Virus record (IMG/VR): IMGVR_UViG_3300025101_000245 | Coordinates: 1-20,785 of that record | Reading direction: 5' to 3' (one strand) | Length of the DNA: 20,785 bases | Source of the DNA: a virus | Shown: positions 1,370 through 6,496 of the stretch, piece by piece | Layout of the letters: the number at the start of each line of letters is the position of its first letter | Numbering within the stretch: position 1 is the stretch's first letter | Made by a program: the position numbers and the translations under genes | The notes under the pieces: model-generated | What the model saw: only the letters and a program-made list of their open reading frames with translations | Database searches by the model: none | Told to the model about the DNA's origin: nothing

Positions 1370-2023
1370 ATGAAACTCATCACAGAAGAAGTCTCAAAAG
1401 TTAAATTTATAACTGAGGGAAAAGGTGCTAAAAAGAAGATGTACATTGAAGGTGTCTTCTTACAGGGCGACCTAAAAAATCGTAATGGAAGAATGTATCC
1501 AATTGATACTCTTGCAAAAGAGGTTGGTAGATACAATGAAGCATTTGTTCAGAAAGGTAGAGCACTTGGTGAACTCGGACATCCCGAAGGCCCAACTGTT
1601 AACCTAGATCGTGTATCACATCGAATTACATCACTTCGCCAAGAAGGTAAAAACTTTATTGGTAAAGCACAACTCTTAGAAACACCAATGGGTAAGATTG
1701 CAAAATCTTTAATATCAGAAGGTGTTACTCTCGGAGTTTCATCTCGTGGTGTTGGTTCACTAAGAGAAGATACATCTTCTGGATGCAAAGTTGTAGGAGA
1801 AGATTTTATGTTAGCAACTGCTGCTGACATCGTTGCAGATCCTTCAGCACCTGACGCATTCGTTTCCGGAATTATGGAAGGAAAGGAATGGATTTGGGAA
1901 GGAGGCATCCTCCGTGAACAATCTGCAACAAAAATTGCGAAGGAAATTAACACTTTAGTCGATCAAAACGCACTAGAGGAGCACAAACTTGGATTATTCC
2001 AAGATTTCTTAGCAAATCTGTAA
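1370..2023 (+). CDS. 21: Prohead core scaffold protease gp21
   Basis: A 217-aa protein, close to T4 gp21 (212 aa). It is the serine protease inside the prohead that cleaves scaffold and capsid proteins after (L/I)-X-E motifs during maturation. Visible landmarks are GDLKNRNGRMYP (residues 33-44), GELGHPEGP with the likely catalytic His71, and LGVSSRGVGSL with the candidate nucleophile Ser at 124/125. This His-then-Ser order matches the herpes-type protease fold of gp21. The next genes are its substrates, scaffold gp22 and capsid gp23. The start follows gene gp68-position after 4 nt. The downstream gap carries a late promoter. Confidence 0.93.
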   Translation: MKLITEEVSKVKFITEGKGAKKKMYIEGVFLQGDLKNRNGRMYPIDTLAKEVGRYNEAFVQKGRALGELGHPEGPTVNLDRVSHRITSLRQEGKNFIGKAQLLETPMGKIAKSLISEGVTLGVSSRGVGSLREDTSSGCKVVGEDFMLATAADIVADPSAPDAFVSGIMEGKEWIWEGGILREQSATKIAKEINTLVDQNALEEHKLGLFQDFLANL

Positions 2024-2075: not shown

Positions 2076-3224
2076 ATGTCCGTTGGTCAAAATTTACAAG
2101 AAATGGAAAACGTAGTAACCAAAGGGGCAAAACCAGCTGATCCACAGCAAAAGGGATTGTCCATTTCAACACCGGGTCAAGCGGCCGTAGAAGATTTAGG
2201 AGGGCCTACTCCTGAGAATTCTCGTCCTGACGATGACTCGAATAAGTTGAAAACACCCGGCACAACCTTAAAACAGGTAAAGGATATTGTGACTAAAGGT
2301 GCTAAGCCTGCAGATCCAATGCCAACGGGTATGAAAGAAGAGGAGAATGTCGAAGGCGATGTAGTCGCTGAAGATCCTGAAGTCTCCGCAGACGAAGTAG
2401 TTTCTGAAGAGGAAACTGCAGAAGTCGAAGAAACTCAAGAAGTTGTTGCTGAAGAAGAAACAACTGAAGAGGAAGTCGTTGAAGAAGAAAAACTTGACAT
2501 CGAAGCAGATGTAAAAGCACTCTTTGAAGGCGAAGAACTTTCTGAAGAGTTTCAATCAAAGGCAAGAACAATCTTTGAAGCAGCAATTAATTCAAAACTT
2601 GCTGAAGTCAAAGAGGCAGTAAAAACTGAATACGAAGAGCAACTTGTAGAAGAAGTTGCCACTATCAAGTCTGAGTTACAAGAAAGAGTTGACGCATACC
2701 TTGAGTATGTTGCTGACGAATGGTTGCAAGAAAATCAAATTGCAGTCGAATCTGGACTTAAGACTGAGATGACAGAATCATTCCTTGAAGGAATGAAGAA
2801 TCTTTTTGAAGAACATTATGTATCCGTACCTGAAGAAAAATATGATGTCATCGAGAGCATGGTAGATAAACTAGATGAAATGGAAGGTAAACTCAACGAG
2901 CAAATCGAAAAGAATGTTGCTCTAAACAGGAGATTAGCCGAGTCCACTTCTGATGTTGTCTTTGGCGAAGTTGCCGAAGGTTTAGCGACATCACAAAAGG
3001 AGAAACTTGCAACCCTCGTGGAGAATGTTGAGTTTGAAAGTGAAACAGACTATCGGGAGAAACTAGCAACACTTAAGGAATCTTATTTCCCAAGCAAAGC
3101 TGGATCTCAAAGAGACAAGTCAGAAAATCTATCTGAAGGCACAGAAACTCCCGGAAATATCGCGGAAATATCAACCAGTATGGAAGCATATCTTCAGACT
3201 CTGAATCGTGTCTCTAAAAAGTGA
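2076..3224 (+). CDS. 22: Prohead core scaffolding protein gp22
   Basis: A 382-aa, very acidic and largely helical protein between protease gp21 and capsid gp23, the place of the T4 major scaffold gp22 (269 aa). Residues about 88-150 are a Glu-rich tract. Residues about 155-345 have long charged helices suggestive of coiled coil, which fits a scaffold that is assembled and then digested. The N-terminus contains a duplicated decapeptide VTKGAKPADP at residues 14-23 and 72-81, separated by a Pro/Asp-rich linker. The protein is about 110 residues longer than T4 gp22, mainly because of this repeat region and the acidic tract. It has its own late promoter. Confidence 0.87.
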   Translation: MSVGQNLQEMENVVTKGAKPADPQQKGLSISTPGQAAVEDLGGPTPENSRPDDDSNKLKTPGTTLKQVKDIVTKGAKPADPMPTGMKEEENVEGDVVAEDPEVSADEVVSEEETAEVEETQEVVAEEETTEEEVVEEEKLDIEADVKALFEGEELSEEFQSKARTIFEAAINSKLAEVKEAVKTEYEEQLVEEVATIKSELQERVDAYLEYVADEWLQENQIAVESGLKTEMTESFLEGMKNLFEEHYVSVPEEKYDVIESMVDKLDEMEGKLNEQIEKNVALNRRLAESTSDVVFGEVAEGLATSQKEKLATLVENVEFESETDYREKLATLKESYFPSKAGSQRDKSENLSEGTETPGNIAEISTSMEAYLQTLNRVSKK

Positions 3225-3264: not shown

Positions 3265-4698
3265 ATGCAAGCCCCTATTAATCAGGAAGCTCTGCAAGAA
3301 AAGTGGGCACCACTACTCGACTACGAAGGTCTTGATCCAATCAAAGACAATCACAAGAGAATGGTGACTGCAGTTCTTCTAGAGAACCAAGAACAAACTA
3401 TGCGTGAAGAACGCGAGTTTTTAACTGAGCAACCAACAAACAGCACAGGTTCATCAGGTGCAACTGCTGGTTTCTCTGCTGGTGCTACAGCTGGTGGCCC
3501 AGTCGCTGGTTTCGACCCAGTATTAATCAGTCTTATTAGACGTTCAATGCCTAACTTGGTCGCTTATGACCTAGCAGGTGTTCAACCAATGAACGGCCCA
3601 ACAGGACTTATCTTCGCAATGAGAAGTCGCTTCACTTCACAGACTGGAACAGAAGCACTATTCAACGAACCAGATTCAGCATTCTCCGCACAGGATGATG
3701 GACGTAATCTTGTTTCTAATGGATACACTCAGAACGAAGGTTCAACAACAGGTGGAGCAGTTGGTTTCGGTACAACCGCAGCACAGGCAGGATCTAACCC
3801 TGCAGCATTGAACCCAGAAGGTTCACAGGCATCTACCACATATACAACTGGTAGAGGTTTCAACACTGAAGATTCTGAAGCATTAGGATCTGAGGCAGGA
3901 GATCAGTTCAACCAGATGGCATTCTCAATCGAGAAAGTCACTGTAACAGCAAAAACCAGAGCACTAAAGGCAGAGTACAGTTTAGAACTTGCTCAAGACC
4001 TTAAGGCAATCCACGGTTTAAACGCTGAGGCTGAGTTAGCAAATATTCTCTCAACAGAGATTCTTGCTGAGATAAACAGAGAAGTTATCAGATCAATCTA
4101 CAAGGTTGCTGAATCTGGAGCACAAACAAACACAGCAACTGCTGGTGCGTTTGACCTAGACACAGACAGTAACGGAAGATGGTCTGTTGAGAAGTTCAAA
4201 GGTTTGATCTTCCAAATCGAGAGAGATGCTAACGCTATCGCACAAAGAACTCGTAGAGGAAAGGGCAACATGATCCTTTGTTCTGCTGACGTTGCTTCTG
4301 CATTAACAATGGCTGGTGTACTTGATTACACTCCTGCACTTAATGCAAACTTAAACGTAGATGACACAGGCAACACATTTGCTGGTGTTCTTCAAGGTAA
4401 GTATAGAGTTTACATCGACCCATTCGCTGCAAACTTAGCTGCTGACCAGTACTACGTTGTAGGTTATAAAGGTACTTCACCTTATGACGCTGGATTATTC
4501 TATTGCCCATACGTTCCACTACAGATGGTTCGTGCAGTTGGTCAGGATACATTCCAACCAAAAATTGGCTTTAAGACAAGATACGGAATGGTTGCAAACC
4601 CATTCGCTGAAGGAGATGTTTCTTCACAAGGTCTTGGTCGTCTTGCTGTTAACAAAAACCGTTACTACAGAAGAGTTAAAGTTCAAAACCTTATGTAA
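3265..4698 (+). CDS. 23: Major capsid protein gp23
   Basis: A 477-aa protein, close to cyanophage gp23 and somewhat shorter than T4 gp23 (521 aa). Recognisable blocks are VLISLIRRSMPNLVAYDLAGVQPMNGPTGLIFAMRSRF (about residues 86-123), GRGFNTEDSEALGSE and the C-terminal FKTRYGMVANPFAEG. The N-terminal delta region ends in FLTE at residues 52-55. This matches the gp21 (L/I)-X-E cleavage rule and predicts a mature protein starting at Gln56. Gly/Ala/Thr-rich sequence follows (SSGATAGFSAGATAGG). It forms the hexamers of the capsid. A late promoter and GAGGT ribosome binding site precede it, and a strong intrinsic terminator follows 19 nt after the stop. Confidence 0.97.
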   Translation: MQAPINQEALQEKWAPLLDYEGLDPIKDNHKRMVTAVLLENQEQTMREEREFLTEQPTNSTGSSGATAGFSAGATAGGPVAGFDPVLISLIRRSMPNLVAYDLAGVQPMNGPTGLIFAMRSRFTSQTGTEALFNEPDSAFSAQDDGRNLVSNGYTQNEGSTTGGAVGFGTTAAQAGSNPAALNPEGSQASTTYTTGRGFNTEDSEALGSEAGDQFNQMAFSIEKVTVTAKTRALKAEYSLELAQDLKAIHGLNAEAELANILSTEILAEINREVIRSIYKVAESGAQTNTATAGAFDLDTDSNGRWSVEKFKGLIFQIERDANAIAQRTRRGKGNMILCSADVASALTMAGVLDYTPALNANLNVDDTGNTFAGVLQGKYRVYIDPFAANLAADQYYVVGYKGTSPYDAGLFYCPYVPLQMVRAVGQDTFQPKIGFKTRYGMVANPFAEGDVSSQGLGRLAVNKNRYYRRVKVQNLM

Positions 4699-5380: not shown

Positions 5381-5388
5381 TATAAATA
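5381..5388 (+). promoter_or_regulatory. T4-type late promoter TATAAATA before the small-gene run
   Basis: A perfect TATAAATA octamer lies directly after a terminator and only 5 nt before an ATG at 5394. It probably drives the tightly packed small genes from 5394 onward, including the putative capsid-targeted proteins and the gp3-like tail gene, as late transcripts. The ATG is so close that the first gene would have an extremely short leader if the transcript starts about 5-7 nt after the octamer. Its translation may therefore begin at a later codon or be poor. Confidence 0.7.
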
Positions 5389-5731: not shown

Positions 5732-5890
5732 ATGAACCCATCACCACGCCAAGTTAAAAAGGCAAAGAAGATTTACGAAGAACTTGTAAATCATTTAATT
5801 GAAGAAGGTTATGCGTCTACCAAGGCTGATGCTGATAATGTCATCAGTGGTATGAGTGAAGAATGGTTTAACATGATTGTCAATGACTAA
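5732..5890 (+). CDS. Small helical protein, unknown (52 aa)
   Basis: The frame from ATG 5732 to TAA 5888-5890 encodes a 52-aa charged, helix-forming protein: MNPSPRQVKKAKKIYEELVN followed by HLIEEGYASTKADADNVISG and MSEEWFNMIVND. The pattern (two amphipathic helices, an acidic end in EEWF) is a real-protein composition, and similar small proteins (xxEEWFxMIxxD) are known to me from other marine myoviruses without a function. Its last 8 bases overlap the ATG of the next gene (ATGACTAA), a typical coupled junction. Confidence 0.65.
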   Translation: MNPSPRQVKKAKKIYEELVNHLIEEGYASTKADADNVISGMSEEWFNMIVND

Positions 5891-6182
5891 AGATTTTTCT
5901 CAATTTATTGAAGAGTCACAATCTCCAAAATGCCCAAAAGGTCATAGGTTTGATACAAAACTTAAGAGTTGTGTTCCAACAAAACGCTATCCGTACTATC
6001 CTTATGGTATGATCGGTAGAAATAGGGAGGAGCCTAAAAATGGGAATGGAAATGGAAATGGGAATGGAAATGGCAACGGTAATGGTAACGGTTCTGGTAA
6101 CGGTAATGGTTCTAACGGGCATTCTGGTGGGAATGGTGGTGGAGCTTCGGGCGGAAACGGTGGAGGAGGTGGAGGAGAATGA
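5883..6182 (+). CDS. Candidate internal head protein with capsid-targeting-like N-terminus and Gly/Asn repeat tail
   Basis: A 99-aa protein from ATG 5883; a TTG two codons upstream is less likely. Residues 1-12 (MTKDFSQFIEES) align with the T4 internal-protein capsid targeting sequence MKTYQEFIAE and include a gp21-type cleavage site I-x-E after residue 11. Residues 17-30 form CPKGHRFDTKLKSC, a Cys pair around a turn, then VPTKRYPYYPYG. From about residue 53 the protein is a disordered NG-repeat that turns into SGGNGGG. It overlaps its neighbours on both sides by 4-8 nt. From family knowledge, such N-termini route proteins into the prohead core; packaging of this one is inference. Confidence 0.72.
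   Translation: MTKDFSQFIEESQSPKCPKGHRFDTKLKSCVPTKRYPYYPYGMIGRNREEPKNGNGNGNGNGNGNGNGNGSGNGNGSNGHSGGNGGGASGGNGGGGGGE
6039..6117 (+). repeat. Hexanucleotide (GGNAAY) coding microsatellite
   Basis: Within the preceding gene, the DNA is a run of near-identical 6-mers (GGAAAT, GGGAAT, GGCAAC, GGTAAT, GGTAAC), each coding Asn-Gly. The 5' copies are the most uniform and the 3' copies carry synonymous changes and Ser insertions. This fits growth of the tail by slippage. Confidence 0.85.
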
Positions 6183-6496
6183 AAACTTTCCTAGAATTCC
6201 TAGCAGAGTCAAATCCTAGAATTCCTAGAAAGAAGGGACAACCTGCTAAATCTAAAAAACATTCGGATTTATATACAGATGAAGATCCTAAAGGAACTAT
6301 TCATGGATTGGGTTTCAAGGATGTTGCAACTTCTAAATCATCTGTCTCAAAGATACGTAAATCTTCAAGATCGCATGCTCATAAAATTCAAGCAGCAATT
6401 GCTATGGAGCAAAGAGCAAGAGTGATGGGTAAGACATCAGAGGCAGCAGTATATCGAAAGTTTATAAACTCTATGAAAAAGAAGACTAAAAAATGA
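6179..6496 (+). CDS. Basic protein with capsid-targeting-like N-terminus; DUF5872-type core
   Basis: A 105-aa strongly basic protein. Residues 1-10 are MKTFLEFLAE, almost identical in pattern to the T4 internal-protein targeting peptide MKTYQEFIAE, with a predicted gp21 cleavage after Glu10. The rest contains KKHSDLYTDEDPKGTIHGLGFKD and SRSHAHKIQAAIAMEQRARV followed by AAVYRKFINSMKKKTKK. I remember this as a family conserved in marine phages (I believe DUF5872; not verified). It starts inside the preceding gene's stop (ATGA) and ends with ATGA into the gp3-like gene. A basic, processed head-internal protein could be packaged and injected with DNA, but no activity can be read from the sequence. 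Confidence 0.78.
   Translation: MKTFLEFLAESNPRIPRKKGQPAKSKKHSDLYTDEDPKGTIHGLGFKDVATSKSSVSKIRKSSRSHAHKIQAAIAMEQRARVMGKTSEAAVYRKFINSMKKKTKK

Follow-up and report, generated by a model that had tools for sequence, protein, structure and literature searches.

Why should two small adjacent genes behind the head block of a T4-type virus encode proteins that begin like the internal head proteins of T4? In the window, by which we mean the whole stretch of 20785 bases analysed here, genes A and B both open with a short sequence resembling the T4 capsid targeting sequence (CTS). The targeting sequence, its cutting by gp21 and the internal proteins are already known from T4. In the leader of T4 IPIII, targeting depends mainly on residues 4 and 7, and cutting on residues 8 and 10, as described in the accessible part of the source (PMC9026906). 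We consider it probable that the products of genes A and B are head cargo, targeted by the CTS and cut by gp21, and that relatives carry such cargo as prohead-protease polyproteins.

Gene A (5883..6182, + strand) is an ORF of 99 aa with a CTS-like leader, a short Cys module (CPKGHRFDTKLKSC) and a Gly/Asn-rich tail; an in-frame TTG at 5877 would lengthen it by two residues. Gene B (6179..6496, +) is an ORF of 105 aa with a CTS-like leader and the basic module B (SNPRIPRK...KKKTKK). The two genes share an ATGA stop-start overlap (6179..6182, +). Following the T4 rule, the predicted CTS of gene A is MTKDFSQFIEE (5883..5915, +), with a predicted cut after residue 11 (or 10), and that of gene B is MKTFLEFLAE (6179..6208, +), with a predicted cut after residue 10. 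Position 6208, given as the end of the feature in the first-pass annotation, is the final base of gene B codon ten. The ORF list contains both ORFs and their N-termini, MTKDFSQFIEE/S and MKTFLEFLAE/S (slash, predicted cut), just as that annotation gave them, and the fit to the T4 CTS and cleavage rule that it claimed holds for gene B in register (F4, F7, L8, E10) and for gene A with the same residue set one position later (F5, F8, I9, E11). The predicted cut motifs at the leader ends, IEE/S in gene A and LAE/S in gene B, have the form [hydrophobic]-x-E, as does LTE/Q in gp23. The annotation also described a Gly/Asn tail in gene A, which is present, and regarded only the gene B product as basic, which is not so, since the mature pI is 9.7 for gene A and 10.7 for gene B. 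Module B has 25 K+R versus 7 D+E.

Searches of Pfam and PHROGs with the mature parts gave no match naming T4 internal proteins. Weak Pfam matches to CBM_14, a cobra-type toxin and Peptidase_C101 were all below their cut-offs and were rejected, and a profile search against solved structures returned one insignificant match (E 0.27). The structural model of gene B has a mean pLDDT of 77, with confident C-terminal helices and a poorly defined region of about residues 1-40 that includes the leader. Foldseek with this model found nothing at E <=0.001, the best match being Dps-like (E 0.63, rmsd 11), and therefore we claim no function from the fold. The simplest guess for the basic module B would be an association with packaged DNA. 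Such a role fits module B better than that of a target-specific inhibitor, because the module is small, strongly basic and conserved.

The window holds a T4-type head block, then small ORFs, genes A and B, and further genes. The portal C-terminus lies in the upstream part of the block, which also encodes a gp21-type prohead protease (Peptidase_S77; 1370..2023, +; PF03420, E 5.9e-34), the presumed cutter, and the gp22 scaffold (2076..3224, +; PF25623, E 5.6e-81; phrog_237), the presumed docking partner in the core. These are followed by gp23 (3265-4698), whose propeptide contains an LTE/Q motif (3421..3429, +) that served as an internal yardstick for the cut motif. Genes A and B sit between gp23 and a tail-tube-like gene, in the head-block neighbourhood reported by the first-pass annotation; uvsY and a peptide deformylase gene are also found after them, and a class II tRNA-synthetase-like gene lies on the opposite strand. 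We take other ORFs of the window to be UvsW, gp55, gp47, gp46 and gp45, the scans having covered part of them. The late promoter proposed upstream has a candidate in a late-promoter-like T4-type core, TATAAATA (5381..5388, +), ahead of the run of small genes; two more such cores occur in the window at 869 and 2027. The small ORF at 5732-5890, directly upstream of gene A, weakly matches a PHROG family that the large protein of S-SM2 touches as well. It was tried as a further module with a single text pattern and was left out of the module set because the pattern gave four near-identical copies in the collected loci.

By analogy with T4, and from the motif itself, the first 10-11 residues of each protein would serve as a CTS that docks it into the scaffold core. 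The gp21-type protease would then cut after [hydrophobic]-x-E, and a small basic protein would stay in the head with the DNA. On the model of the T4 internal proteins, it would probably enter the host along with the DNA; the early takeover or anti-defence role that the first-pass annotation suggested for such proteins is speculative. Both modules, together with six or more others, are shuffled among large proteins of related cyanophages.

Leaders of this kind are retained in homologues that were selected on other parts of the protein. Among 23 distinct gene-A-like short ORFs, which were chosen by the Cys motif and not by the leader and include many close relatives, 22 keep [FL]xxF, the exception being P-SSM2 in L007. 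When rows were chosen on the module B core only, the 16 distinct ones with an ORF of <=130 aa all kept M-K-[TN]-[FL]xxFL and then Glu, with six different leaders. Named phages with a gene B match are Kyanoviridae or pelagiphages, and a full-length match was found only in P-TIM68 (Prochlorococcus; two records), at 84%. The module of gene A was re-found in P-TIM68, S-SM2, S-SCSM1 and S-CREM2.

The homology of gene B breaks off close to the predicted cut. In the best 80 of 581 viral loci, alignments start at residue 1 in 10 cases, at residues 3-9 in 12 and at residue 10 or 11 in 58, so that the homology edge coincides with the predicted cut in 58/80. Among 89 distinct module B rows, the 16 short ORFs (<=130 aa) carry a leader, and others begin M-SNPRIPR. 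Internal copies follow unrelated upstream sequence that mostly ends in MKE/E, MTE/E, VKE/E, VSE/E, VSE/G or VYE/A; exceptions to this joint motif include L066, L005 and L061, as well as L056, L058 and L062 with their A-K-E joints. In six loci (L063, L065, L070, L081, L085 and L087) the gene A tail is fused in frame to module B via VYE, IYE or VSE. By sequence, each such fusion is the split pair of the window with one cut motif replacing stop, start and leader. The first-pass annotation had stressed that the mature parts differ strongly; the difference is real, but these are not just two unrelated proteins, since both are modules of one shuffled multi-module family.

At the same site after gp23, P-TIM68 encodes one 373-residue protein consisting of a leader, a K/E-rich stretch, module B, module K and module A, the last preceded by an internal MKNFTSFMEA. 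The S-SM2 708-residue and Bellamy 618-residue proteins, encoded between the small and large terminase genes, begin with module B; the S-SM2-type large proteins open on it directly, with no leader, which counts against the head-targeting reading. At least part of the S-SM2 protein is carried by 502 phage records in tblastn. Its sequence (L003 3998-6124) also contains DUF192 and DUF6321 domains. In HTVC033P, which is outside Kyanoviridae according to its record, a relative of module B (L006 2935-3225) begins MAKKREPK without a leader; therefore, the domain is not always CTS-tagged and has a life outside this cargo system. Elsewhere, many marine virus contigs carry relatives of module B (L308-L387, the best 80 of 595).

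Modules placed first in an ORF begin with Met and lack the joint motif, and those inside large proteins tend to start right after a cut motif. Start Met, CTS leader and [hydrophobic]xE joint look like interchangeable ways of beginning a module, and the large modular proteins most likely serve as polyproteins from which the prohead protease releases mini-proteins. The joint motif was tested on the internal upstream contexts of eight modules. A context was dropped if it was >=50% identical, over the 13 residues farthest from the joint, to one already kept, which left 158 contexts, and the motif was defined as [LIVMF]xE with E in the final 9 residues before the module. It was present in 125/158 contexts, whereas the shuffles summed to about 34 and random positions within those ORFs gave about 25. 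The counts per module were B 21/24, A 6/8, K 10/10, D 18/19, E 19/39, G 32/33, H 6/6 and F 13/19; taken alone, E and H are not clearly above their shuffles, whose maxima were 18 and 6, respectively. Glu occupied a fixed offset in F (19/19), K (10/10), H (6/6), G (25/33), B (20/24) and A (6/8), and more than one offset in D and E. Over a wider upstream span the motif was found in 144/158 contexts, and in 12 of these it was immediately preceded by FxxF-like residues, which look like leaders now buried in fusions.

The joints might, however, never be cut in proteins that are nonetheless part of the virion, the [hydrophobic]xE then reflecting either a habit of the linkers or a seam of recombination that travelled with the modules. 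Shuffling is plain, with 73 architectures among the collected ORFs (some ended by contig edges; patterns for eight modules and a DUF192 marker), the linkers are rich in Glu, which makes up 14% of the residues upstream of joints, and our searches turned up no cleavage data. A mere seam does not readily account for the placing of Glu, which keeps a fixed offset and has a hydrophobic residue at -3, the sequence farther upstream being unrelated: in the same test Lys, whose background is similar to that of Glu, scored 22, and Asp, which is half as common, scored 18. Furthermore, the ORF-initial modules do without the motif, and the motif is the same as that of the gp23 propeptide, gp23 being the classic gp21 substrate. 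Capsid proteins of the group have [LI]xE before the conserved body with a variable spacer, as in FLTE/QPTN of the gp23 in the window and NLME/APTN, MIAE/QPTN and ILTE/TLQT of other major capsid proteins. We regard uncut joints as unlikely. Cutting at both leaders and joints is what we infer from this position-specific conservation.

Virion proteomes of relatives bear on whether such proteins are packaged. The available text of the S-CREM2 report lists 52 virion proteins (PMC10665884), of which 50 were matched to 224 called ORFs, with gp145 and gp174 left out. A relaxed leader, [FYL]xxF[LIVMFA]xE within the first 35 residues, was found in 6/27 of the listed virion proteins without a structural assignment, in 1/23 structural proteins and in 1/174 undetected ORFs. 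The comparison of 6/27 with 2/197 for all others gave a Fisher P of 4e-5, and that of virion with non-virion proteins gave 1.3e-4; these P values are not blind because 13 virion and 19 undetected N-termini had been viewed before the patterns were written. The six proteins are gp6 (SAM hydrolase), gp12 (Cas9-like nuclease, leader at residues 19-25), gp13, gp14 (kinase), gp136 and gp154 (cytidylyltransferase). The strict start-anchored form was found in 5/27, 0/23 and 1/174, and brings in gp15. Two undetected ORFs match one of the two patterns, and many proteins on the list have no leader. The virion-detected gp12 (L388 10534-13143) also ends in KTFRDFLN, a C-terminal resemblance to a CTS.

The S-CREM2 gp15 is a homologue of gene A (MNFSEF..., CPEGYKWNKKLGKC) and is recorded in virions by 4 peptides in the proteome as available to us. 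No stand-alone homologue of gene B was detected in virions in the homologue data used here. In S-SCSM1, the modular protein QFG06285, which begins with module A, and a CTS-bearing NMNAT are both labelled virion protein; ORF30 begins MKTFKQFMSES and has no virion label, as judged from two stretches of the record annotation. According to the accessible text on S-SM1, its virions contain 41 proteins, with GC 190 named among them (PMC3037559). In the records of S-SM2, P-SSM4 and P-SSM2, the wording 'similar to Synechococcus phage S-SM1 protein' is attached to gp14, gp15, gp18, GC 190 and GC 119, and is missing from gp16 and gp17; this suggests that GC 119 may also be among the 41 virion proteins. 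Metabolic enzymes recur in cyanophage virions, and the accessible parts of two papers do not decide between packaging and co-purification (PMC9602691, PMC10665884). The homologues speak for packaging of proteins of this kind, the gene A and gene B products being candidates. The CTS and gp21 reading of the first-pass annotation thus gains support by comparison, through the S77 gene, the LTE/Q of gp23, the leader excess in the S-CREM2 list and the gp15 homologue recorded in virions.

A helper role in the core or in assembly, of the kind played by T4 gp67 and gp68, with the proteins chopped up and lost in head maturation and not delivered to the host, would suit genes that adjoin the head block and share its protease, and T4 core proteins are indeed cut into fragments, as stated in the part of PMC5694885 that was available. 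However, homologues are present in mature virions according to the proteome data cited above, and the module interiors are strongly conserved. We consider this role distinctly improbable.

The search of ORF starts proposed in the first-pass annotation was run on nine Kyanoviridae genomes. The strict start pattern, M[KR]x[FYL]xxF plus the cut motif, leaves no room for the MTKDF spacing of gene A and, like the S-CREM2 patterns, was set after looser lists had been viewed. It occurred in 16/2292 called ORFs, about 30-fold over the 300 column shuffles, which gave 0.53 on average and at most 3. T4 gave 3/280 ORFs (shuffle 0.20), and three marine phages without a T4-type head gave 0/293 (shuffle 0.01). 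With the cut motif omitted, the counts were 19 versus 3.5 in Kyanoviridae, 4 versus 1.3 in T4 and 1 versus 0.2 in the three marine phages. Mosig, one of the genomes scanned, had no ORF start with the cut motif. A broad scan for M-preceded matches over whole ORFs gave ratios of 0.6 to 2.5 in the nine Kyanoviridae and 3.3, on one match, in the control P-SSP7; start-anchored patterns were adopted because of this small excess. In 13 records, an exact pattern at the DNA level matched 0-2 sites each. T4 ORF starts included MKTYQEFIAE twice (100 and 193 aa), MKTFKEFIKE (54 residues) and the annotated IPI MKTFKEF; the 100- and 193-aa ORFs are presumably IPII and IPIII. A frequent carrier of the leader is T4-GC 190 (cytidylyltransferase / NMNAT-like), with a CTS-like ORF of 383-424 aa in 7/9 genomes; the enzyme annotation stands in the four inspected records (P-SSM4, S-SCSM1, S-SM1 and P-SSM2), and the identity in the other three genomes is assumed from similar N-termini. 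That the CTS resemblance is due to chance and that these are ordinary small cytoplasmic phage proteins is very improbable: looser patterns match often (8-24 times per Kyanoviridae genome) and the broad scan shows little excess, but the strict pattern exceeds shuffles about 30-fold, the leader goes with virion detection in the available S-CREM2 list, and homologues keep it with a one-residue shift.

The protease itself may carry a related signal. The C-terminal tail of gp21 in the window, LEE followed by HKLGLFQDFLANL (1973..2020, +), resembles a cut site and a CTS-like helix. Of 16 distinct gp21 C-termini, several of them close relatives, 14 have a tail such as LFQDFLANL after LEE, LDE, LQE or LAE; those of T4 and S-B68 have no such tail. 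For T4 gp21, C-terminal processing is expected and propeptides may target the protease to the prohead, as the accessible part of PMC9026906 states. It looks as if gp21 may be recruited by the same code and then trim itself, a lead that was noticed after the fact.

Compared with known systems, the proteins proposed here as CTS-targeted cargo resemble T4 IPI, IPII and IPIII in their 10-residue N-terminal leader with two key aromatic or large residues and a cut motif ending in Glu, and T4 internal proteins in general in combining a small basic mature protein with a gp21-type protease in the same genome. Unlike T4 internal proteins, the modules also occur in relatives as parts of long fusion proteins that contain several cut motifs; we know of no T4 internal protein that is such a fusion. 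Inner-head proteins of the giant phages phiKZ and SPN3US are likewise processed by a gp21-like protease that cuts behind Glu, in some cases at several sites, as far as the available text reports (PMC10052503, PMC9026906), but the repeated cuts there remove propeptides, whereas here they would separate several conserved modules. The polyvalent proteins of phages and plasmids also combine many domains in one delivered polypeptide and are likened to polyproteins by their authors in the part of the paper available to us (PMC5512222). These release their domains by embedded peptidase domains (PMC5512222), whereas the S-SM2 protein has no significant peptidase match and its joint motif points to the prohead protease. 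Among eight proteins scanned, no embedded peptidase was found, the best peptidase match in the S-SM2 protein having an E of 0.054, below the curated cut-off.

In the titles and abstract openings found for cyanophages, neither cut joints nor a CTS was described, most subscription papers being outside the search, and we came across no cleavage mapped in a member of the Kyanoviridae. Neither of the two cyanophage proteome papers used here contains the phrase 'capsid targeting sequence'. The use of a CTS in Kyanoviridae, its marking of cyanophage virion enzymes and polyprotein-like large virion proteins did not turn up in our paper searches.

More broadly, one short code in marine T4-like phages, an FxxF leader and hydrophobic-x-Glu cuts, may load shuffled polyprotein mini-proteins as well as whole enzymes (NMNAT-like, kinase, SAM hydrolase, Cas9-like nuclease) that would be carried into the cell along with the DNA, and the same code may recruit the protease at its C-terminus; we see the case for this wider scheme as evenly balanced. 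A T4-type leader on cyanophage virion enzymes would be a mechanism for their packaging, and it makes the question of packaged versus co-purified enzymes testable by N-terminal mapping. Prohead-protease polyproteins, if true, would yield many small head proteins from one gene in a dsDNA phage. The leader could also serve to list the likely head cargo of uncultured marine phages from their genomes alone.
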